Source: Comamonadaceae bacterium
GTDB taxonomy: Bacteria > Pseudomonadota > Gammaproteobacteria > Burkholderiales > Burkholderiaceae_C
DNA: 64,000 bases
Assembly: GCA_027486495.1 (NCBI GenBank)
Contig: JAIXOZ010000028.1
Span: 1-64,000, forward strand
Direction: 5' to 3'
Below the pieces are notes generated by a model. The model ran no database searches. It saw only the letters and a program-made list of their open reading frames with translations, and was not told the DNA's origin. Position 1 is the stretch's first letter. Each line of letters begins with the position of its first letter. Made by a program: the position numbers and the translations under genes. This document shows, piece by piece, positions 14,613-24,234 of this stretch.

Positions 14613-16015
14613 GATCCAGACTGAGCTTGCCACCACCCGATCACTCCGGTCAAAAGGTTGGCAAAGCATCTACACCTGAACGCCATCAGCGTCCGTGGCG
14701 ATTCCAAAAGCTGGGCTGGCTTGGCGTGCTGATGGTGCTGTCGGCTGTCCTTTGGTGGGCGCTAGACAAAGCTGGGCCAAAGGCCAATATGGCCTGGAGC
14801 GAACTGAGCATCAGCATGGGCATGTCCACCTCGACCAGCCTGTCCTGGCAACTGGCGTTCGAGCCGCAAACACCCTTGGCAACGGCGACACCCGAGATAG
14901 GGGCGGAGCCGCTGTTACGGCAAATTTACGCCCAACTGGGCGAGGGTGAACGGGCCCAAGCATTGGCGACGGCCAGCGTGCTGGCCGAGCGCTTTCCCAC
15001 TTTTCAACTGGGCCAGCTGCTGTACGCCGATTTGCTAAACATCAGCTCAGCCAACCCTGTACCTTGGTCCGATGCGGACGAGCTCAACGCGCCGTCTTTA
15101 CGCAAACGTCTGGACGAGCTGCTTTTGGAGTCAAAGCGCAGACTCCAGCGAGACAGTGTGCAAAGCTTACAGGGCAAAATCCCGTCTGCGCTGGCCTTCC
15201 TGAGCCCGCAGCAAGCCTATGTGGCGGCTGTGGACGCCTCCAAATCGCGTCTGTATTGGTTCGAAAATCGCACTGACAGCGATGGTCGTTTGCAGCTGCA
15301 TCTTGTCAAGGAAAGCTACATCTCGGTGGGCATCAACGGGGTGGGAAAGGACAAAGAAGGCGACGGCAAAACCCCTCTGGGCGTTTACTTCATCCTGCGC
15401 CATTTGCCAGGCGAGGGTCTGCCTGATTTGTTTGGCGAAGGGGCCTTGACACTGAACTACCCCAATGCATTGGATCTGATGCGCAAAAAAACCGGCTCTG
15501 GCATCTGGCTGCACGGCACGCCCAGCGCCCAGTACGCCAGAGCTCCGGAGTCCACCGATGGCTGCGTGGTGCTCTCCAATCCTGAAATGGGGCGCTTGCT
15601 GCAGATGCCCGATTTGCGTATGACCCCGGTGATCATTGCCGAGCAACTCGAATGGGTCAACGCAAACCAAGCCGGACAGACGTGGGCCGCCTTCAAGCCC
15701 GTTTTGGACAAGTGGCTGCAGGCACGCAACGACCGCGACCCCGAGGCCTTAAGAACACATTACAGCCCGCGCTATGAACAAGACGGCATGGGCCTGACGC
15801 AGGTCTGGGCCCGGCTGGCCCAAACCACGCTGGGACAAAACCAAAGCCAACCACTGGAGTTGGTGTCCGTTTTTAACTGGAAAGACCAGGACCAGACCAT
15901 GGTCGTGACGATGAAAGACCCCAACCAAAACCACCCCCAAGGTACGGCTTATTTGCGCACTTATTGGCAAAAAGAAAATGGCCAATGGCGGTTGGTTTTC
16001 CAGGGCCACACCTGA
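14609..16015 (+). CDS. L,D-transpeptidase (YkuD) family protein with NTF2-like tail
   Basis: A 468-residue periplasmic enzyme of the L,D-transpeptidase fold, which links peptidoglycan stems or attaches proteins to them. Features are an N-terminal membrane anchor (LGVLMVLSAVLWWALDKAG, about 34-53), a helical region, then the catalytic domain with KEGDGKTPLGVY, WLHGTP (His near 302) and STDGCVVLSN (Cys near 319). The C-terminal 110 residues form an NTF2-like domain like that of the preceding protein. The start is TTG at 14609, overlapping the upstream TGA; no in-frame ATG precedes the anchor. Coupled expression with the TPR gene is likely. Confidence 0.9.
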   Translation: MRSRLSLPPPDHSGQKVGKASTPERHQRPWRFQKLGWLGVLMVLSAVLWWALDKAGPKANMAWSELSISMGMSTSTSLSWQLAFEPQTPLATATPEIGAEPLLRQIYAQLGEGERAQALATASVLAERFPTFQLGQLLYADLLNISSANPVPWSDADELNAPSLRKRLDELLLESKRRLQRDSVQSLQGKIPSALAFLSPQQAYVAAVDASKSRLYWFENRTDSDGRLQLHLVKESYISVGINGVGKDKEGDGKTPLGVYFILRHLPGEGLPDLFGEGALTLNYPNALDLMRKKTGSGIWLHGTPSAQYARAPESTDGCVVLSNPEMGRLLQMPDLRMTPVIIAEQLEWVNANQAGQTWAAFKPVLDKWLQARNDRDPEALRTHYSPRYEQDGMGLTQVWARLAQTTLGQNQSQPLELVSVFNWKDQDQTMVVTMKDPNQNHPQGTAYLRTYWQKENGQWRLVFQGHT

Positions 16016-16071
16016 TTGACCCCGCTCACCAAACGAAGGCAATCCAACCAACGGCACTGTGCCCAACCCGC

Positions 16072-16362
16072 ATGAACACCGAGATCCCGTTTTTCCAAGC
16101 CCGCATCGCCCCTGACGGCGGCAGTTTTGACGCATGGAAGTCTCAGAGTTTGCTCGATTCGTTGGAACAAAGCGGCCTGCAATGGCCCAGCTCCTGCCGA
16201 TCCGGCACTTGCCGCACCTGCATCGGGCAACTGGTCTCGGGCCAGGTGCACTATGAGATGGCCTGGCCCGGCCTAACGGCCGAAGAAAAAGCCGAGGGCT
16301 GCGTGCTGCCTTGCGTGGCCAAACCTCTCAGCGATATGGTGCTTCAAGACCCCTTTGCTTGA
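16072..16362 (+). CDS. Plant-type [2Fe-2S] ferredoxin
   Basis: A 96-residue electron carrier. Cluster ligands follow the plant-type pattern: Cys42, Cys47, Cys50 in SCRSGTCRTC, with Cys81 in CVLPC about 30 residues later. It resembles the ferredoxin domain of oxygenase reductases (LLDSLEQSGLQWPSSC) but has no reductase domain attached. The ATG at 16072 gives the family start; the frame is open earlier. The partner reductase is not in the window. Confidence 0.88.
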   Translation: MNTEIPFFQARIAPDGGSFDAWKSQSLLDSLEQSGLQWPSSCRSGTCRTCIGQLVSGQVHYEMAWPGLTAEEKAEGCVLPCVAKPLSDMVLQDPFA

Positions 16363-16525
16363 CCCATTGATCCGGCCCCTTGAAGTCGTTCACCCTGTTC
16401 ATGAACCGGCTTTCTTGTAGGCGTCCACCGCGTGGGCGATAGGCAGGCCAAGGCGTTGCAAATGCAATCGCCCACAGGGGTGGGCGCCTGCAAAGAAAAA
16501 ATAGCCGAACAGGCACCAGAGTGCT

Positions 16526-18088
16526 TCATGCCTCGTCCAGGCCCAATTCCTGGATTTTGCGGGTGATGGTATTGCGGCCGATGCCTAGTTTTTGCGCCGC
16601 CTCAATGCGGCGACCCCGGGTGGTGGAGAGTGCCGCCTGAATCATGCTAGTTTCAAAACGCCGGGTGAGCGCGTCCCACACATCGGTGCGGCCTGCGTTG
16701 AGCAAGGCCAGGGCCTCTTGCTCCAGGCCGGGCTCCCAGCCCATGACACCCGGATTGGACGCGGTGGCGTCAAAGGGCGATGCCACGCTGTGCGCATCCA
16801 CCGGGCGGTCATGGCTGGCAATTTGGCTCGGCTCGGGCAGCCCCAGTGAGGTGTCGGCCACGCCGCCCCCCGCGCCAGAAGACAAGGCCGTGAACGTGGC
16901 AGGCGCGGCCGTCGCAGCCCCTGTCGGGGCCAGCACTTCGGGCGGAAGATCCTTGACTTCAATCACCTGGGTAGGTGCCATCACCGTGAGCCAGTGGCAG
17001 ATGTTTTCCAGTTGGCGGACATTGCCCGGAAACTGGAATTGACTCAAACGATCGAGCGCGGCGTCAGCCATGCGTTTGGGCTCCACGCCCAGTTGTTGGG
17101 CGCTGCGCTGCAGGAAGTAGCGCGCCAGCACGGGCACGTCTTCACGCCGCTCGCGCAGTGCCGGCAGGCGCAGGCGAATCACGTTCAGGCGGTGGAACAA
17201 GTCTTCGCGGAACACGCCTTCCTTGACGCGCTGCTCCAGGTCTTGGTGGGTGGCGGCGATCACGCGCACATTGGCCTTGACGGCGCTGTGCCCACCCACT
17301 CGGTAAAAGTTGCCATCCGACAGCACGCGCAGCAATCGGGTTTGCAAATCAAAAGGCATGTCGCCAATTTCGTCCAGAAACAAGGTTCCGCCATCGGCCT
17401 GCTCAAAGCGGCCCCGGCGCGAGGCTTGTGCGCCGGTGAAGGCGCCGCGCTCATGGCCAAACAATTCGCTCTCGAGCAGGTCTTTGGGTATGGCCGCCGT
17501 GTTGATGGCCACAAAGGGCTGGTTGGCACGCGGCGAGTGTTTGTGCAGCGCGTGCGCCACCAGCTCCTTGCCCGAACCCGACTCGCCCGTGATCAGCACC
17601 GTGACGTGGCTTTGTGCCAGGCGACCAATGCCGCGAAACACGTCCTGCATGGCCGGGGCCTGACCCAACATTTCAGGAGCATCGGCGATTTTTTCTTCGG
17701 CCACATCCTCGCGCTGGCTCTCGCCCACCGCGCGGCGGATCAGCTCCACCGCCTTGGGTAAATCAAAGGGCTTGGGCAGGTACTCAAACGCCCCACTTTG
17801 AAAGGCCGAAACAGCGCTGTCCAGATCGGAGAACGCCGTCATGATGATGACCGGCAAACCGGGCATGCGCTGCTTGATGGCGGCGAGCAAATCCAGACCC
17901 GAGCCACCAGGCATGCGGATGTCGCTGACCAACACCTGCGGGCCGTCGCTCTCACCCTCGGCCTCTAGTGCTTTCATCACCTCGCGTGGGTTGGTGAAGC
18001 TGCGCGTGGGCAATCCCTCGCGCAGCAGTGCTTTTTCGAGCACAAAGCGGATGGATTGGTCATCGTCTACGATCCAGATCGGCTTCAT
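16526..18088 (-). CDS. ntrC: Nitrogen regulation response regulator NtrC (NR-I)
   Basis: Sigma-54-dependent activator controlling nitrogen-assimilation genes. Domains of the 520-residue protein: receiver (PIWIVDDDQ; phospho-acceptor Asp56 in VSDIRMPGG), AAA+ domain (Walker A GESGSGKE, sigma-54 loop GAFTGA, Walker B GGTLFLDEIGD), an Ala/Ser-rich linker, and a Fis-type helix-turn-helix at the end (AAQKLGIGRNTITRKIQELGL). The ATG at 18088 (MKPIWIV) is chosen; a TTG at 18112 would add 8 residues. It follows ntrB closely. Its predicted binding sites stand upstream of glnA. Confidence 0.97.
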   Translation of the reverse strand: MKPIWIVDDDQSIRFVLEKALLREGLPTRSFTNPREVMKALEAEGESDGPQVLVSDIRMPGGSGLDLLAAIKQRMPGLPVIIMTAFSDLDSAVSAFQSGAFEYLPKPFDLPKAVELIRRAVGESQREDVAEEKIADAPEMLGQAPAMQDVFRGIGRLAQSHVTVLITGESGSGKELVAHALHKHSPRANQPFVAINTAAIPKDLLESELFGHERGAFTGAQASRRGRFEQADGGTLFLDEIGDMPFDLQTRLLRVLSDGNFYRVGGHSAVKANVRVIAATHQDLEQRVKEGVFREDLFHRLNVIRLRLPALRERREDVPVLARYFLQRSAQQLGVEPKRMADAALDRLSQFQFPGNVRQLENICHWLTVMAPTQVIEVKDLPPEVLAPTGAATAAPATFTALSSGAGGGVADTSLGLPEPSQIASHDRPVDAHSVASPFDATASNPGVMGWEPGLEQEALALLNAGRTDVWDALTRRFETSMIQAALSTTRGRRIEAAQKLGIGRNTITRKIQELGLDEA

Positions 18089-18122
18089 CAAAGTGGCACT
18101 TTCTGTGGTCAATGGAGAGGCT

Positions 18123-19184
18123 TCAAGGCAAGGGAATCAAAATCTTGAAGTCCGTACGACCCGGCTCGCTTTCACACTCGATCAGGCCATGGTGTTGTTG
18201 CACAAAGGTTTGCGCCAATGTGAGCCCCAGGCCCGAGCCGCCTTCGCGCCCCGAAATCAACGGGAAGAAAATGCGGTCCTTGATCGAGTCTGGAATACCA
18301 GGCCCGTTGTCCATCACATGCAATTCCAATGCCAGGCGATAACGCTGCTTACCAAACGTGACTTGCCTCAAGATCCGGGTCTTGAGCGTGATCTGTGCGT
18401 CGCCTTGCGCTACGCGCTCTTGCAAGGCTTGCGCCGCGTTGTGGGCGATGTTGAGCACCGCCTGAATGAGCTGCTCGCGGTCACCACGGAACTCGGGGAT
18501 CGAGATGTCGTAGTCGCGCACCACACGCAAGCTCCGTGGGAACTCGGCAAGGATCAAAGCCCGCACGCGCTCGCACACTTCGTGGATGTTCACGTCGCCC
18601 ACCACATGCGGCCTGCGGTGCGGTGCCAGCAAGCGGTCCACCAGGGTCTGCAGCCGGTCAGCCTCGTGGATGATGACCTGCGTGTACTCGGTCAGCTCCT
18701 TGTCGTCGAGCTCCATCTCCAGCAATTGCGCCGAGCCACGAATGCCGCCCAGCGGGTTCTTGATCTCATGCGCCAGGTTGCGGATCAGCTCCTTGTTGGC
18801 TTGCGCCTGGTCGAGTAAGCGCTCCTCGCGCTCTTGCCGGGTTTGCTGCTCCACCGGGAGCAACTCCACGATCACCTCGTCGGGCAGATCGGTCAGTGCC
18901 ACGATGACGTGCACGGGCAAAGGCTCGTCGTGGTGCATGCGGCGCAGCTGGGCTTCGTAGCGCAGCGCGGCAAACTCGTTGGATTGCGCCCCGGACAAAG
19001 CCATGATCAAGGGCTGCGGGTCGACGAAATAGTCGGGCAAATACGCGTTGTGCAGCGTGCGCCGGGACAGGCCCAAAGCATCTTCGAGCGCGGCGTTGAC
19101 AAAGCGCACACGGCCTTGGCCTTGCATCACGGCCACGGGCGTGGCCAGCAGGTCAAAGGCCTGGAATCGGTGGGGTGTGCTCAT
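18123..19184 (-). CDS. ntrB: Nitrogen regulation sensor kinase NtrB (NR-II)
   Basis: Cytoplasmic histidine kinase/phosphatase that phosphorylates NtrC and is controlled by P-II. The 353-residue protein has an N-terminal PAS domain (about 10-110), the dimerisation/phospho-acceptor helix with His139 in NLAHEIKNPLGG, and an ATP-binding domain with N-box (LNIAHNAAQ), G1 (DNGPGIP) and G2 (GSGLGLTLAQTF). There are no membrane segments, as expected for NtrB. Its ATG overlaps the upstream stop by four bases. Confidence 0.97.
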   Translation of the reverse strand: MSTPHRFQAFDLLATPVAVMQGQGRVRFVNAALEDALGLSRRTLHNAYLPDYFVDPQPLIMALSGAQSNEFAALRYEAQLRRMHHDEPLPVHVIVALTDLPDEVIVELLPVEQQTRQEREERLLDQAQANKELIRNLAHEIKNPLGGIRGSAQLLEMELDDKELTEYTQVIIHEADRLQTLVDRLLAPHRRPHVVGDVNIHEVCERVRALILAEFPRSLRVVRDYDISIPEFRGDREQLIQAVLNIAHNAAQALQERVAQGDAQITLKTRILRQVTFGKQRYRLALELHVMDNGPGIPDSIKDRIFFPLISGREGGSGLGLTLAQTFVQQHHGLIECESEPGRTDFKILIPLP

Positions 19185-19789
19185 GGCGTGCGGCGGCTGG
19201 TCTGCACCGGGCGACGCGACAGCTCGCGTTGCAGGCTGTCGATGTCGCGCTCGGTGCGGTCAATGGCCGCCTTCATCTCAGCCACACGGTCCAGGTATTT
19301 TTGGTGGTTGCGGGTTTCGGCGGCCCACTTCTCGGGCTCGCCTTGGTTGTAGTTTTGCACCAACTGCGCTAGCTTTGCACGGGCTTTGTCCAGCTCCTGC
19401 GCCAAGATGGTGCGCGCTTGCGCATCGCGCTCGCTTTGCTGCACATCGGGGGTGCGGGCAAGCACGGAGGATGTGCGGGGCTGTCCCGCCAATGCGGGTT
19501 CTGTGGCACCGGGTTCGGCTGGGGCGCTGCGGGTTGACGCGGCAGCGGATGTGGGCAATGGGAAAGAGGGCGCCAGGGTGGCTGGACGGGTGCCGCCAAT
19601 CACGGTGATGGCTTGGGGGGCCAGCGGCTCGCACAGGCTGGGCTCACGCGGAGCATTGGTGTATTCGTGGCCGCAGCGGTACACGGCTTGCTGGGCTTGC
19701 GCGGCCAAGCCTGCAGTCAACAGCAAAAAAAGGACGGCCGAGGCCGTCCTTTTTGAGCATTGCACAGGTGCGTGTGCAATGGTGGTCAT
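19181..19789 (-). CDS. Exported coiled-coil protein between glnA and ntrB
   Basis: A 202-residue protein with a signal peptide (SAVLFLLLTAGLAAQAQ), then a short Cys-containing section (AVYRCGHEYTNAPREPSLCEPL) slightly reminiscent of DUF4124 proteins. An Ala/Pro/Ser-rich linker follows, then a C-terminal coiled coil (AQELDKARAKLAQLVQNY, RTERDIDSLQRELSRRP). Function is unknown. Its ATG lies five bases past the glnA stop, and its stop overlaps the ntrB start. The codons of its signal peptide contain a perfect terminator hairpin (19727-19754), so it is translated only from transcripts that read through. Confidence 0.75.
   Translation of the reverse strand: MTTIAHAPVQCSKRTASAVLFLLLTAGLAAQAQQAVYRCGHEYTNAPREPSLCEPLAPQAITVIGGTRPATLAPSFPLPTSAAASTRSAPAEPGATEPALAGQPRTSSVLARTPDVQQSERDAQARTILAQELDKARAKLAQLVQNYNQGEPEKWAAETRNHQKYLDRVAEMKAAIDRTERDIDSLQRELSRRPVQTSRRTP
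19725..19754 (-). terminator. Intrinsic terminator of glnA inside the next gene
   Basis: On the minus strand AAAAAGGACGGCC pairs with GGCCGTCCTTTTT around a 2-base turn (or a 4-base loop if the inner pair opens), followed by a run of seven T. It begins about 40 bases after the glnA stop and is entirely inside the first 22 codons of the downstream exported-protein gene. It should stop most glnA transcripts and let a fraction pass to ntrBC. Confidence 0.88.
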
Positions 19790-19794
19790 GGTGC

Positions 19795-21210
19795 TTAGAG
19801 CGAGTAGTACATGTCGTATTCGACAGGGGACACTTCCACGCGGCTGCGGTTGACCTCTTGCATCTTCAATTCGATGTAAGCGTCGATCCACGAGTCGGTG
19901 AACACGCCGCCCTTGGTCAGGAAAGCGCGGTCCGCGTTCAGGCAGTCCAGAGCCTGGTCCAAGCTGGAGCAAACAGTCGGGACCAACTTGTCTTCTTCTG
20001 GAGGCAGGTGGTACAGGTCTTTGGTGGCTGCTTCGCCGGGGTGGATCTTGTTCTCGATACCGTCCAAGCCCGCCATCAACAAGGCAGCGAAGCCCAGGTA
20101 GGGGTTGCACAATGGATCGGGGAAGCGGGCTTCCACGCGGCGGCCCTTGTCGCTGGCGACGTTGGGGATGCGGATCGAGGCGGAGCGGTTTTTGGCCGAG
20201 TAAGCCAACTTGACCGGGGCTTCGTAGTGAGGAACCAAGCGCTTGTAGCTGTTGGTGCCGGGGTTGGTGATCGCGTTCAGGGCACGGGCGTGCTTGATGA
20301 TGCCGCCGATGTAGAACAAGGCGAATTCAGACAAACCAGCGTAGCCATTGCCTGCGAACAGGTTCTTGCCGTCTTTCCAGATGGACTGGTGAACGTGCAT
20401 GCCGGAACCGTTGTCGCCAGCGTAAGGCTTGGGCATGAAGGTGGCGGTCTTGCCGTAAGCGTTGGCCACGTTGTGGATCACGTACTTTTGCAGCAGGGTC
20501 CAGTCAGCGCGCTCAACCAAGGTCGAAAAACGTGTGCCGATTTCGCACTGACCCGCGCCCGCCACTTCGTGGTGGTGCACTTCGACCGGGATGCCCACGG
20601 ACTCGAGGATCAGCGACATTTCGCTGCGCATGTCGTGTGTGCTGTCGACGGGGGGCACTGGGAAGTAGCCACCCTTGACGCGGTTGCGGTGGCCTTTGTT
20701 GCCGCCGTCCATCTTGGTGCCGCTGTTCCATGGGGCTTCGGCTTCGTCGATGGCGTAGAAAGTGTTGTTCGGCTCGGTGCTCCAACGCACTTCGTCAAAC
20801 AAGAAGAACTCTGGCTCGGGACCGAAGTAGGCGGTATCGCCCAAGCCCGATTGCTTGAGGTAAGTCTCGGCACGCTTGGCGATCGAGCGGGGGTCACGCT
20901 CGTAAGCCTTGCCGTCGGTGGGTTCGATCACGTCACAAATCAGGACCAGGGTGACTTCTTCGAAGAAGGGGTCGATGATGGCGCTGTTGGGATCAGGGAT
21001 CAACAGCATGTCGGAGGCTTCGATGCCCTTCCAGCCGGCGATCGAAGAGCCGTCGAAGGCTTGACCGTCTTCGAACTTGCTTTCGTCAAACTGCGACACG
21101 GGCGCCGTAATGTGTTGCCACTTGCCACGGGTATCGGTGAAACGGAAGTCAACGAACTTGACTTCGTTGTCTTTCACCATGTTCATCACATCTGCGACGG
21201 TCTTGGCCAT
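19795..21210 (-). CDS. glnA: Glutamine synthetase type I
   Basis: Makes glutamine from glutamate, ammonia and ATP; the main ammonium-assimilation enzyme, a cytoplasmic dodecamer. The 471-residue product carries [18 protein letters not shown], the [10 protein letters not shown] signature and [10 protein letters not shown], and the adenylylation loop DLYHLPPEE whose Tyr is the target of GlnE in GSI-beta enzymes. The ATG at 21210 follows CAGGAGAATTTG. A sigma-54 promoter and two NtrC sites lie upstream, and ntrB-ntrC lie downstream past a terminator. Confidence 0.98.
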
Positions 21211-21373
21211 CAAATTCTCCTGAAGGAAAAGGGGTTAAATAGTTGACGCACAACTCTTGCAGTTTCTGTGCCAACCGGCCCAGTCCACCCAAGCTGAACA
21301 GACCCAAATTGTGCCTTGAGCCATGTGTTTTGGGCGCTTTGAGTCAGAAAAAACAAGCTGTCTGGGTGTCGGC

Positions 21374-21388
21374 GCCTTGTCAGTGCCA
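21374..21388 (-). promoter_or_regulatory. Sigma-54 promoter of glnA
   Basis: Minus-strand TGGCAC-TGACA-AGGC matches the sigma-54 consensus TGGCAC-N5-TTGC. It keeps both essential dinucleotides (GG at -24 and GC at -12) at the right spacing; only two non-invariant bases of the -12 element differ. The expected start of transcription is near 21362, giving a leader of about 150 bases before glnA. Tandem NtrC sites lie 90-125 bases further upstream. Confidence 0.8.
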
Positions 21389-21449
21389 GACAAAAAATCC
21401 GTCATGCTCAGAAATTGATCACCTCAAGTGGGTTTCAGTGCGCTCGCAA

Positions 21450-21466
21450 TGCACTTTTATGGTGCA
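21450..21466. promoter_or_regulatory. NtrC-binding site 1 (glnA enhancer)
   Basis: TGCACT-TTTAT-GGTGCA is a near-perfect dyad matching the NtrC consensus TGCACC-N5-GGTGCA with one mismatch. It is about 95 bases upstream of the predicted sigma-54 start site, a normal enhancer distance. Confidence 0.85.
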
Positions 21467-21470
21467 ATCA

Positions 21471-21487
21471 TGCACTATTTTAGTGAA
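21471..21487. promoter_or_regulatory. NtrC-binding site 2 (weaker)
   Basis: TGCACT-ATTTT-AGTGAA is a second dyad whose distal half is degenerate. Its centre is 21 bases from that of site 1, two helical turns, so two NtrC dimers would sit on the same face of the DNA. It lies only 8 bases from the end of the upstream gene. Confidence 0.7.
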
Positions 21488-21494
21488 TTAAAAA

Positions 21495-22322
21495 TCAACG
21501 CACCAATTCAGGGCCGTATTCCAGACTGAAGGCCTGAAGGCCTTGGCGCAACGCGAGGTAGGCCGTATCGGCATGGGCGGGCTCGCCTTTGACGCCCAAC
21601 TCGATGTGGCGACCCCACTGCGGGTGGTCCACACTGGGCAAACTGAACACTTTCACGCCTGGGTGCGCGGCTTCGATGGACTCCATCAGTGGCGTCAGCG
21701 TGGCTTCCATTGCGCCCAAAACGATCACCGACTTTTCAACATAAGCGTCTTGCCGGAAGAAGGCACTGTAGTGCGTGTCCAGCACCGACTCGATCATGGG
21801 CCAGGCCATGACCGGAAAGCCGGGCACAAAGTGCACAGCGCCGCCGCCAGGGCCGATGCAACTGAACCCGGGGATCTTGTTGTAAGGGTTGGGGATGATG
21901 GCCGCGCCCTGGGGGAAGGTGCCCATGTTCAGGCGGTGCAGGTTGTCCGCTCGCTCGGGCTCGTAGGGCAGGCCTTGCTCTTTGGCCGTGTCTTGCATGC
22001 GCTCCTGAATCAGGCGCTTGGCTTCGGGGTGCAGCGCCAAAGGCACCCCCCAAGCCTTGGCGGCGCATTGGCGGGTATGGTCGTCGGGCGTGGCCCCGAT
22101 GCCGCCGCAGCAAAACACCGCGTCCGCCGAAGCAAATGCCCGCTGCAAGGTGGCGGTGATGCGCTCGGGCGAATCGCCTACGTACTCGGACCAACTCAGG
22201 CTCAGGCCTCGCGCGTTCATGAACTCGATGACTTTGGGCATGTGCTTGTCCTGGCGCTTGCCGGACATGATTTCGTCGCCAATGATGATGAGGCCAAAGG
22301 TGGGGGTCATAGGAAAACTCAT
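21495..22322 (-). CDS. CinA-like molybdopterin-binding-domain protein
   Basis: A 275-residue protein with the MoCF/CinA N-terminal fold (FGLIIIGDEIMSGKRQDKHMP, CCGGIGATPDDHTRQ, PGGGAVHFVPGFPVMAWPM). It matches the competence/damage-inducible CinA N-terminal domain but lacks the C-terminal NMN-deamidase domain of full CinA. Such stand-alone proteins are sometimes annotated as nicotinamide-nucleotide or ADP-ribose metabolism enzymes; activity here is unproven. ATG at 22322 or 22310 are both possible. Its 3' end abuts the glnA enhancer. Confidence 0.8.
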   Translation of the reverse strand: MSFPMTPTFGLIIIGDEIMSGKRQDKHMPKVIEFMNARGLSLSWSEYVGDSPERITATLQRAFASADAVFCCGGIGATPDDHTRQCAAKAWGVPLALHPEAKRLIQERMQDTAKEQGLPYEPERADNLHRLNMGTFPQGAAIIPNPYNKIPGFSCIGPGGGAVHFVPGFPVMAWPMIESVLDTHYSAFFRQDAYVEKSVIVLGAMEATLTPLMESIEAAHPGVKVFSLPSVDHPQWGRHIELGVKGEPAHADTAYLALRQGLQAFSLEYGPELVR

Positions 22323-22332
22323 GGGTCAGTTG

Positions 22333-23268
22333 TCAGAATTTAGGGCGTGCAAGGACATCGGTGATGCCGTCACTGGATTCAGCGGTGTCGCCCCCCAACC
22401 GAGCTGCAGCATGCGGCGCCCCCCCCGCCACGGCAGGGGCAGCAGGCAAGACCTCGTCCACGGCCGCTTGCCGGGGCTCGTCGCGCAGGGCCTGCAAGGC
22501 AGCCAGGCCGAAATGCGCGAACCACATCGAAGAAAAGGCAAACACCAGCGTGTAAATCCAGATGGCCACGGGCACCAAAATCACAAAGGCCGCGGCAAAC
22601 AAGGCCCCGGAAGCCCACACCAAGCTGGGCGCTGCGCCCATAAGGCCAGTGACCACGCCCATGGCCAGAAAGCTCATGCGGTGGCGAGCCATGAGGGTGT
22701 GGCGCTCGTTGGCGCTGGCAAATTCGGCCAAAACGTCAAACGCCATGACCCGGTAAGTGAGCCAACCCCAGATGAAAGCGGGCAGCACCAGGGCCAGCGG
22801 CGGCACCAGCCACATGGGCAAAGTCAAAACCAACGCCCCCAGCGCCAGCACGAGAGAGAAAAAGGTCCACCACAAGCTCAAAAGCAAACTGCCGCCGTGC
22901 TTGCGCTGCAAACCGGCAAAACGCCGCTCGGCCACCATGCGGGTGAGGGACGGGGTCATCATGAAGGACACCGCCAGCAAAGACGCCACCACCACCAAGG
23001 GCGTGAAAGCAAAGATCACGAGCAAGGGGGCCACCACGGTTTTGAGGTTGCCCAAACCCACGCCTTCGAACCAGCGCCAGACCACATCGAGCCAAGCGGA
23101 GGCGTCCAACCAGCCCCGCACAAAGGTGACCGCCACGTCCCAATAAAAGTACCCCAGCAGCCAGGACAAGCCCACGATCAACACCAAGGGCAAAATTGAC
23201 AGACCGATCACACGGGGATAAAGACAATACAGCCCTGCACGCCAAAAGGAATCAATCAACAGTTTCAT
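22333..23268 (-). CDS. EI24/CysZ-like membrane protein
   Basis: A 311-residue inner-membrane protein opening MKLLIDSFWRAGLYCLYPRVIG, with about six hydrophobic segments separated by charged loops (MTPSLTRMVAERRFAGLQRKHGG). The pattern fits the EI24 domain family, which includes the sulfate permease CysZ. Specific function is not assignable. The ATG at 23268 is used rather than an earlier alternative. It ends 10 bases before the CinA-like gene and is probably cotranscribed with it. Confidence 0.75.
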   Translation of the reverse strand: MKLLIDSFWRAGLYCLYPRVIGLSILPLVLIVGLSWLLGYFYWDVAVTFVRGWLDASAWLDVVWRWFEGVGLGNLKTVVAPLLVIFAFTPLVVVASLLAVSFMMTPSLTRMVAERRFAGLQRKHGGSLLLSLWWTFFSLVLALGALVLTLPMWLVPPLALVLPAFIWGWLTYRVMAFDVLAEFASANERHTLMARHRMSFLAMGVVTGLMGAAPSLVWASGALFAAAFVILVPVAIWIYTLVFAFSSMWFAHFGLAALQALRDEPRQAAVDEVLPAAPAVAGGAPHAAARLGGDTAESSDGITDVLARPKF

Positions 23269-23415
23269 GGGCGAAAGCTTAACATTTGAAGTGGCATAGG
23301 CCTGCCAGCTCATACAGCAACAAACCTCTCAATCAGCCCAAGAACGAGCCCACTGGGCCCAAAACCCGCCACACAGCACTCAAGCGGCACAAGCCGCTGT
23401 CAACAAGGATGACCC

Positions 23416-24234
23416 GTGCACCAAGCCGAACTTGAAAAAATCCATATCGACTCCGTCCAACTGGAAGTGCTGCACCTGCCGGGGCCTGCCGAAGCGGGGC
23501 AACCCACACTGGTTTTTTTGCACGAAGGACTGGGCAGTGTGCGCATGTGGCGGGACTGGCCTGCCCGCTTGTGCGCGCAAATCGGTTGCTCCGGTTGGGT
23601 CTATTCGCGTCAGGGCTACGGGCAATCCGACTCCGTGGTGGATGTGCGCGGACCGTCCGTGCAAATTGGCACGCAAAGACGGGGGCGTTTGCTGCCAGAC
23701 TACATGCACCGGGAAGCACTGGATGTTTTGCCCAAAGTGCTCAAGTCTCTCGGCATAAAGCGGCCCGTTTTGCTCGGCCATTCAGACGGAGGCACCATCG
23801 CCTTGCTGCACGCCGCGCACCATGACGTGCATGGCTGCATCGTGATGGCTCCGCACCTCATGGTGGAGGAGTTGTCTGTGCAAGCCATTGCCCAGGCCCG
23901 CGAAGCTTTTCTGAACGGGCCTTTGCGCGAACGTCTGTCCAGTTACCACGCTGATGTCGACGGTGCTTTTTGGCAATGGAACGATGTCTGGCTCAGCCAG
24001 GCGTTTCGCACTTTTGATATCCGCCCCGAGTTGGGAACCATCCGGGCTCCGCTGCTGGCCATCCAGGGCGTTGACGACGCTTATGGCACCTTGGCACAGA
24101 TTGATGACATCGCAGCGCAGGTGCCCCAAGCCCAATTGGTGAAGCTGCTCCGCTGCGGACACTCGCCGCACCGCGACCAGCCAGAACTCGCAGTGCAGGC
24201 CATCAAGACGTTCTGGGCACAACTCAGGGCTTGA
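23416..24234 (+). CDS. Alpha/beta hydrolase
   Basis: A 272-residue alpha/beta-hydrolase-fold enzyme. Visible elements are the oxyanion region FLHEGLGSV, the motif SRQGYGQSD, the nucleophile elbow GHSDGG (Ser near 120), an acid region (GVDDAYG) and the catalytic His in LRCGHSPHRDQPE. The start is GTG at 23416 with AAGGA upstream; no suitable ATG exists. It probably hydrolyses an ester, lactone or C-C bond; the substrate is unknown. Its 3' end overlaps the convergent rsuA-like gene by 11 bases. Confidence 0.88.
   Translation: MHQAELEKIHIDSVQLEVLHLPGPAEAGQPTLVFLHEGLGSVRMWRDWPARLCAQIGCSGWVYSRQGYGQSDSVVDVRGPSVQIGTQRRGRLLPDYMHREALDVLPKVLKSLGIKRPVLLGHSDGGTIALLHAAHHDVHGCIVMAPHLMVEELSVQAIAQAREAFLNGPLRERLSSYHADVDGAFWQWNDVWLSQAFRTFDIRPELGTIRAPLLAIQGVDDAYGTLAQIDDIAAQVPQAQLVKLLRCGHSPHRDQPELAVQAIKTFWAQLRA

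Follow-up and report, generated by a model that had tools for sequence, protein, structure and literature searches.

Because termination inside a gene yields an mRNA without a stop codon, terminators and coding regions usually lie apart. In E. coli and Salmonella, a Rho-independent terminator of moderate strength follows glnA and precedes glnLG (ntrBC) (PMC9731577), as it does at the locus described here. According to the same source, deletion of the glnA terminator in E. coli left NtrC nearly constant (PMC9731577), which argues against a major role in that species, although ntrBC there has its own promoter, glnLp. The enteric terminator, however, sits in a non-coding 3' UTR upstream of glnLp, whereas the one studied here falls within the first codons of an extra gene, with no such promoter recognised. 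A terminator or stem-loop within a coding sequence that gives rise to stop-less mRNA is also described for arfA and brfA (PMC8012679). There, the frame has 72 residues with the element near its end, and the truncated mRNA yields the active protein; here, in contrast, the signal peptide contains it, and truncation would leave a product of ~22 residues. Judged by position, with the terminator preceding the mature protein, such a product is unlikely to be functional in Limnohabitans.

In the pyrBI leader (pyrL) and in bmrB, a translated frame likewise runs over a terminator, and translation is described as affecting readthrough (PMC5021804, PMC4191407). Those frames encode short leader peptides, whereas the frame here opens a complete exported protein, and an unsystematic look revealed no antiterminator. 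A similar layout was built in the synthetic plasmid W48 of Li et al., in which an upstream gene is followed by a short gap, an AUG and a terminator 30 bp on inside a second ORF (PMC4824070). W48 is artificial and its AUG has its own ribosome-binding site, while the start here has none. The section on W48 names no natural case beyond leader peptides and predicted sites (PMC4824070). Many 3' ends in 5' UTRs and ORFs have been reported for E. coli (PMC7815308), and the term signal peptide does not occur in the text of that paper. Among the open-access titles, abstracts and passages covered, we found no account of a terminator encoding a signal peptide. ORF-internal terminators are already known; one that serves as code for a signal peptide appears to be a new form of them.

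The glnA-ntrBC locus and its terminator

The window, that is, the whole stretch of DNA analysed here, comprises 64,000 nucleotides. Its minus strand carries glnA, an exported-protein gene, ntrB and ntrC in this order, with candidate regulatory sites 5' of glnA:

21450..21466, plus strand: NtrC-type site TGCACTTTTATGGTGCA, 5' of glnA (0.3 expected by chance in the window)
21258..21273, minus strand: sigma-54-like promoter TGGCACAGAAACTGCA, 5' of glnA (0.7 expected by chance in the window)
19795..21210, minus strand: glnA, type I glutamine synthetase (Pfam and NCBIfam TIGR00653 above cut-off), stop codon TAA at 19797-19795
19184..19789, minus strand: exported-protein ORF, 202 amino acids without the stop, signal peptide probably at about residues 1-33
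18123..19184, minus strand: ntrB (NF008293 above cut-off)
16526..18112, minus strand: ntrC (TIGR01818 above cut-off), ORF listed from a TTG

The two regulatory sites were called with the sigma-54 and NtrC-type consensus sequences, and the weight of the sigma-54-like site lies in its position upstream of glnA. The translation of the exported-protein ORF begins MTTIAHAPVQCSKRTASAVLFLLLTAGLAAQAQQAVYRCG, ends at 19184 and contains a conserved YRCG motif near the mature start; no family model matched it above cut-off, PF12118 scoring below its own. The true start of ntrC may lie further in than the listed TTG. At 19184-19181 (minus strand), the exported-gene stop TGA overlaps the ntrB start in an ATGA, which suggests that ntrB is translationally coupled to the exported gene.

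The elements at the junction of glnA and the exported gene are as follows:

19787..19789, minus strand: ATG start codon, 5 nt past the glnA stop, without Shine-Dalgarno pairing
19758..19781, minus strand: hairpin 1, CATTGCACA-CGCACC-TGTGCAATG, 9 bp, between the ATG and the terminator
19750..19754, minus strand: A5 tract preceding the stem, inside codons S12-K13-R14
19732..19749, minus strand: terminator stem-loop GGACGGC-CTCG-GCCGTCC with a 7-bp stem, inside codons R14-T-A-S-A-V-L20
19725..19731, minus strand: T7 tract of the terminator, inside codons L20-F-L22

Stem and T run make up codons 14-22 (R-T-A-S-A-V-L-F-L) of the exported-protein gene. An earlier note on this DNA had described a perfect hairpin whose T tail overlaps the first codons of an exported-protein gene, and an ATG five bases past the glnA stop. 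Both descriptions are borne out, with the stem at 19749-19732, the T7 reaching 19725, and the ATG at 19789-19787 following the TAA at 19797-19795.

The site has the G+C-rich stem and directly following T run of an intrinsic terminator. A loose terminator scan of the window came near chance in number (10 found versus 8.4 expected), with the glnA site as the longest match. A strict rule, which asks for a stem of 7 or more perfect pairs (5 or more of them G-C) and for 6 or more T among 8, leaves 2 sites in the window, versus 1 in total over twenty 64 kb first-order Markov sequences; the glnA-terminator site is more than chance. The other strict site lies at 54341-54324 (minus strand) and reads GCGCCTC-GCCC-GAGGCGC followed by T6. 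The 141 nt around the glnA terminator fold with a z of -4.0. In the 3.78-Mb genome assembly, the stem pattern GGACGGC-N4-GCCGTCC is single-copy, which rules out a repeat element, and a search of 15000-24000 gave no Rfam match at the gathering threshold.

We compared this locus within the genus and the family. Among 90 genomes of the freshwater genus Limnohabitans, 80 had a match to the exported protein, giving 81 loci; three of these, which carry no glnA end (L015, L060, L081), were excluded. The remaining 78 consist of 48 core loci and two side groups of 9 and 21. For the outgroups, 140 genomes (2 of them of the genus) were searched at family level, and the first 40 others by GlnA score were taken. 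L139 and L141 were added to these, giving 42 outgroup loci; L140 had already been included as the Limnohabitans locus L072.

The stem pattern with a T run of at least 5 is present in all 78 Limnohabitans loci, 22-45 nt past glnA, two of which (L020, L038) the automatic terminator rule had missed. Among the outgroups, a relative of the exported protein is present in 41 of 42, and ntrB lies downstream in every one of the 42 loci. A terminator rule gives a site within 100 nt in 34 of these 42, versus 0 of 42 in an equal control stretch inside glnA, and the 34 stems carry compensating changes, with two to seven pair types per position and variation on both sides. Because all 78 Limnohabitans loci and 34 of the 42 outgroups carry the terminator, and the outgroup stems show paired changes, the comparison indicates that both the terminator and the gene order are old. 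The stem is kept in the 50 of 78 Limnohabitans loci whose exported gene starts past it, and the outgroup mature motif lies 125-275 nt past the terminator (23 measured). Since the stem is thus retained in loci and outgroups with a later gene start, its conservation is independent of the frame.

In 21 of the same-genus loci (L045-L047, L049-L052, L054, L056, L058, L064-L071, L074, L077, L080), the last 120 GlnA residues are 78-83% identical to those of the window, which is below some outgroups, e.g. L083 with 95% over 120 residues. This could possibly reflect glnA replacement or a wrong genus grouping.

Overlap of the exported-protein gene with the terminator

In 28 of the 78 Limnohabitans loci, the exported gene appears to begin ahead of the stem and thus to overlap it; L040 and L044 have a possible later start with R, hence 26 overlaps are strict. 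The overlap is in phase 1 in 17 loci, in phase 2 in 8 and in phase 0 in 3. Among cultured strains, Bal53 and 2KL-51 have the overlap and 2KL-1 lacks it. The figure of 28 comes from manual sorting, which relied on where the mature motif lies and on the missing charged n-region; a mechanical rule that accepts any TTG or GTG past the hairpin gives 7 forced overlaps, 33 ambiguous loci, 37 with the start after the hairpin and 1 unclassified. The distance from the stem to YRCG agrees with the sorting, with a clean gap between 50-104 nt in the 28 overlap loci and 124-177 nt in the 49 others with the motif.

Read from the ATG through the terminator, the frame in the window yields KRTASAVLFLLL, a stretch that resembles the last part of an n-region followed by a signal-peptide core. 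A TTG is the earliest in-frame start past the stem; it would leave LLLTAGLAAQAQQ, with no charged n-region. In L008, L011, L012 and L055, the signal peptide contains a tandem in-frame partial copy of the terminator segment, ~45-110 nt past the glnA stop, and ASAVLF or a near copy occurs in it twice (e.g. ASAVLFSWLPSASAVLF in L008).

The starts of the overlap loci lie 4-8 nt past the glnA stop. None of the 28 forms a Shine-Dalgarno duplex of -3 kcal/mol or lower, versus 24 of the 50 first in-frame ATGs of the other loci, and the mean energies are 0.14 and -3.1, respectively. An alternative measure that takes the best of up to 4 ATGs in the non-overlap loci gives a mean of -4.8 (3 loci without a value) and is biased toward the overlap reading. 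The lack of Shine-Dalgarno pairing suggests that the overlap starts are coupled to glnA translation. In the window clade, the codons before the stem have a pN/pS of 1.31, that is, no amino-acid constraint, so the case for use of the 19789 ATG rests on the kept frame and not on conserved residues.

All 48 core Limnohabitans loci, including the 20 without overlap, have an ATG no more than 13 nt past the glnA stop (3.0 expected in those 20, a figure that serves as a guide, as the genomes are related). Elsewhere, it is found in 0/21 and 3/9 loci of the side groups and in 5/42 outgroups. Among 34 distinct contexts, the ATG alone is invariant. The frame opened by it would reach the stem in 46 of the 48 core loci and run past the T tract in 42. 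It is open into the exported protein, with a second start present, in 7 of the 20 core non-overlap loci; in L034, L042 and L075, the stop of the ATG frame overlaps the ATG of the exported gene. We looked for selection on this ATG-led mini-ORF frame in the non-overlap species and did not find it: the frame is open through the T tract in 16 of the 20 core loci versus 17 and 19 for the other frames, and hence not beyond chance.

Between the ATG and the terminator, the GCAC...GTGC of hairpin 1 occurs with 4-8 nt between its halves in 47 of the 48 core loci. Folding at this place falls in the lowest 5% of its own shuffles in 28/48 core Limnohabitans and in 9/31 outgroups (with other sequences), and in 0/21 and 0/4 loci of the side groups. 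An NtrC operator needs fixed spacing. Hairpin 1 is disfavoured as such an operator because its GCAC/GTGC spacing varies over these 4-8 nt in the 47 core loci and the motif is missing in one.

Synonymous sites in the stem hardly vary. In the window clade (12 loci), stem and T tract have a pS of 0.07 and a pN of 0.01, versus 0.38 and 0.11 for the mature part. The mature pN/pS is 0.29-0.39 in the four overlap clades tested, with the pair L040/L044 outside this test, which rules out a decaying exported gene. Low pS alone is no proof of an element, because glnA also has low-pS windows (down to 0.07); at 20140-20175 (minus strand), codons 126 to 115 before the glnA stop, a 12-codon window has a pS of 0.07 in the window clade. 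In 28 of the 78 loci, the terminator lies within a conserved coding frame, whose mature part is under purifying selection in the four overlap clades. The comparison indicates that the stem DNA is under both RNA and protein constraint in the window species and its clade.

The proposal of the earlier note that the same DNA encodes a signal peptide and acts as a terminator therefore stands in part: both constraints apply in this species and clade, where frame and ATG are kept and the stem pS is 0.07, but the conservation of the terminator does not depend on the frame. That note had also asked whether relatives keep hairpin and frame together, and took a hairpin kept without the frame as evidence against its idea. 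The hairpin is kept in 78/78 loci and the frame overlap in 28/78, the other 50 retaining the hairpin with a later start, which partly contradicts the idea.

For tree building, the sequence flanking 9 of the 121 loci was too short. Both the protein tree (81 rows, 12 of them outgroups labelled as starting past the hairpin) and the DNA tree (54 rows, without 15 loci of the most divergent Limnohabitans group that are present in the protein tree) require 5 changes among the four states. When only well-supported branches are counted, switches between overlap and non-overlap number at least 3 by the DNA tree and at least 2 by the protein tree; for phase 2, the DNA tree calls for at least 2 changes. 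Gain within Limnohabitans is the simpler direction because the outgroups are taken to start past the hairpin. From these trees, the overlap appears to be younger than the terminator and to have arisen several times, in all three frames; some reversals are possible. By the measures used, the overlap does not visibly lower terminator strength: mean stem energies are -11.7 to -12.4 kcal/mol in three overlap groups versus -12.2 in the rest, and the T run averages 7.1-8.0 in overlap groups versus 6.6 in the other loci.

Promoter motifs and probable readthrough behind the terminator

The motif [N]ATACT occurs at +25 to +200, between terminator and gene, in 30 of the 42 outgroups (4.4 expected) and in none of the 48 core Limnohabitans loci (4.2 expected). 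In the two side groups, it is at chance level (1/9, 1.1 expected; 3/21, 3.1 expected), and it is absent from the last 200 nt of glnA in every group. Inside the exported gene, a single core overlap locus of 27 carries [N]ATACT, as do 4 of the 9 loci of one side group (1.5 expected). TTGGCG precedes it by 17 nt in 5 of the 23 outgroups scored for promoters, and a looser -35 plus -10 pattern is present in 9/42 outgroups versus 0/78 Limnohabitans loci. A sigma-70 rule gave no site in 17000-24000 of the window (1.6 expected by chance). We infer that the exported gene and ntrBC have probably lost this promoter in Limnohabitans and rely on readthrough.

The motif is absent also from 12 of the 42 outgroups, including L083, which has the highest outgroup GlnA identity. 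Its absence therefore leaves room for another promoter, and one of another kind may lie behind the terminator in Limnohabitans. Just past the T tract, a tract within 3 mismatches of CTGGTTCAATGTNGTTTTG is present in 12 of the 20 core non-overlap loci (L013, L014, L016, L019, L021, L022, L024, L025, L034, L042, L043, L075), in 0/28 overlap loci and in 0/30 other Limnohabitans loci; it could be such a promoter. A hidden promoter inside the exported gene is weakly disfavoured, as no 10-codon window there has a pS as low as the 0.14 of the stem window, but some come to 0.20-0.21. Whatever the position of the promoter, any mRNA for the whole protein in the overlap species includes the terminator.

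Proposed origin of the overlap and what it may mean

Our preferred reading, to which we give a probability of roughly 0.63, is that an old glnA terminator feeds the exported gene and ntrBC by readthrough and that a signal peptide has been laid over it. The hairpin would be the old, conserved intrinsic terminator of glnA. With the outgroup-type promoter motif missing in Limnohabitans, the exported gene and ntrBC would most likely owe their transcription to a minority of RNA polymerases that pass the terminator, and a partial terminator would give high GlnA and low levels of the exported protein and NtrBC. The exported gene in several lineages, that of the window among them, would also lack a start of its own past the terminator. 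Translation would then begin at the ATG 4-8 nt past the glnA stop, probably through ribosomes coming straight from glnA, and the coding region would cross the terminator, whose A tract gives K or R and whose T tract gives F or L in any frame, as a signal peptide needs. At most as a side effect, the trailing ribosome might also increase readthrough. Sequence comparison supports this reading through the conserved hairpin, the occurrence of the overlap in three frames, the two constraints acting on the same DNA, the lack of Shine-Dalgarno pairing at the start and the absent promoter motif. Counting against it, the perfect stem with its T7 looks strong and would leave little readthrough.

Translation might instead set the level of readthrough itself, as the earlier note proposed, with ribosomes that reinitiate at the ATG past glnA holding the hairpin open and so gating ntrBC, as in the pyrBI leader. 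This would fit the ATG within 13 nt of the glnA stop in 48/48 core loci, the sole invariant in the 34 contexts, and the suppression of E. coli terminators by nearby ribosomes described in PMC4824070 and PMC5021804. In the system of Li et al., termination is almost lost when a stop codon lies near the terminator, an effect gone beyond 27 nt (PMC4824070), and the glnA stop in the window is 45 nt from the terminator. In their reporter of like layout, moreover, translation from an AUG 30 bp before the terminator, within the first 100 bp of the gene, reduced termination by only ~10% (PMC4824070), although a coupled start could act differently, the ribosome perhaps being close already. The ATG frame is also no more open through the T tract (16/20) than the other frames (17, 19) in the non-overlap loci, and the minimum-energy fold, as one fold, has no pairing between hairpin 1 and the stem. 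We consider such gating possible but doubtful. Rather unlikely, in our view, is plain genome compaction, in which the terminator would be fully efficient, ntrBC and most of the exported protein would come from an unrecognised promoter, and the overlap would have no regulatory meaning. The stem lies 50-104 nt from the mature motif in overlap loci, against 124-177 nt in other Limnohabitans and 125-275 nt in the 23 outgroups measured, in keeping with compaction, and candidate promoters are the CTGGTTCAATGTNGTTTTG-like tract past the T tract (12/20 core non-overlap loci) and the [N]ATACT within the exported gene (4/9 loci of one side group, 1.5 expected). However, this tract is missing from 28/28 overlap loci, the sigma-70 rule is without a site in 17000-24000, and the overlap-species mRNA for the whole protein must carry the terminator.

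Control through non-stop mRNA, of the arfA/brfA kind, would have terminated glnA mRNA carry the ATG frame without a stop, so that ribosomes stall at its 3' end and tmRNA lowers the glnA mRNA. The frame does run past the T tract in 42/48 core loci, and in the W48 layout upstream expression was about half, which its authors ascribe to non-stop decay (PMC4824070); this consequence should also apply to the window locus. Yet the frame in non-overlap loci is not better open than other frames, and a steady cost would be odd for a gene expected to be highly expressed, which makes this form of control improbable. We give still less credence to a small RNA freed from glnA mRNA, with the two hairpins as its 3' end. 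Its model would be enterobacterial GlnZ, which derives from the glnA 3' UTR and ends at the glnA terminator (PMC9731577), and in the window neither hairpin is more than 70 nt from the glnA stop; but 15000-24000 has no Rfam match, and the spacer before the terminator is only 22-45 nt in the 78 loci.

Beyond this locus, intrinsic terminators may be ready-made signal-peptide seeds, such that a gene losing its start beside one can gain an export signal without harming the terminator. We hold this generalisation tentatively, at somewhat less than even odds; if true, secreted proteins may commonly acquire or restore signal peptides in this way, and operons may become readthrough-dependent by it. An element of ~30 nt with both RNA and protein function, present in many species and in three frames, makes the two constraints separable by comparison. 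The loci also form a natural series for the interplay of ribosome and RNA polymerase at a terminator, from no ATG, through an ATG only and a frame with a second start, to full overlap. The finding bears on how ntrBC, a global nitrogen regulator, could come to rely on readthrough from the very gene it is expected to control.
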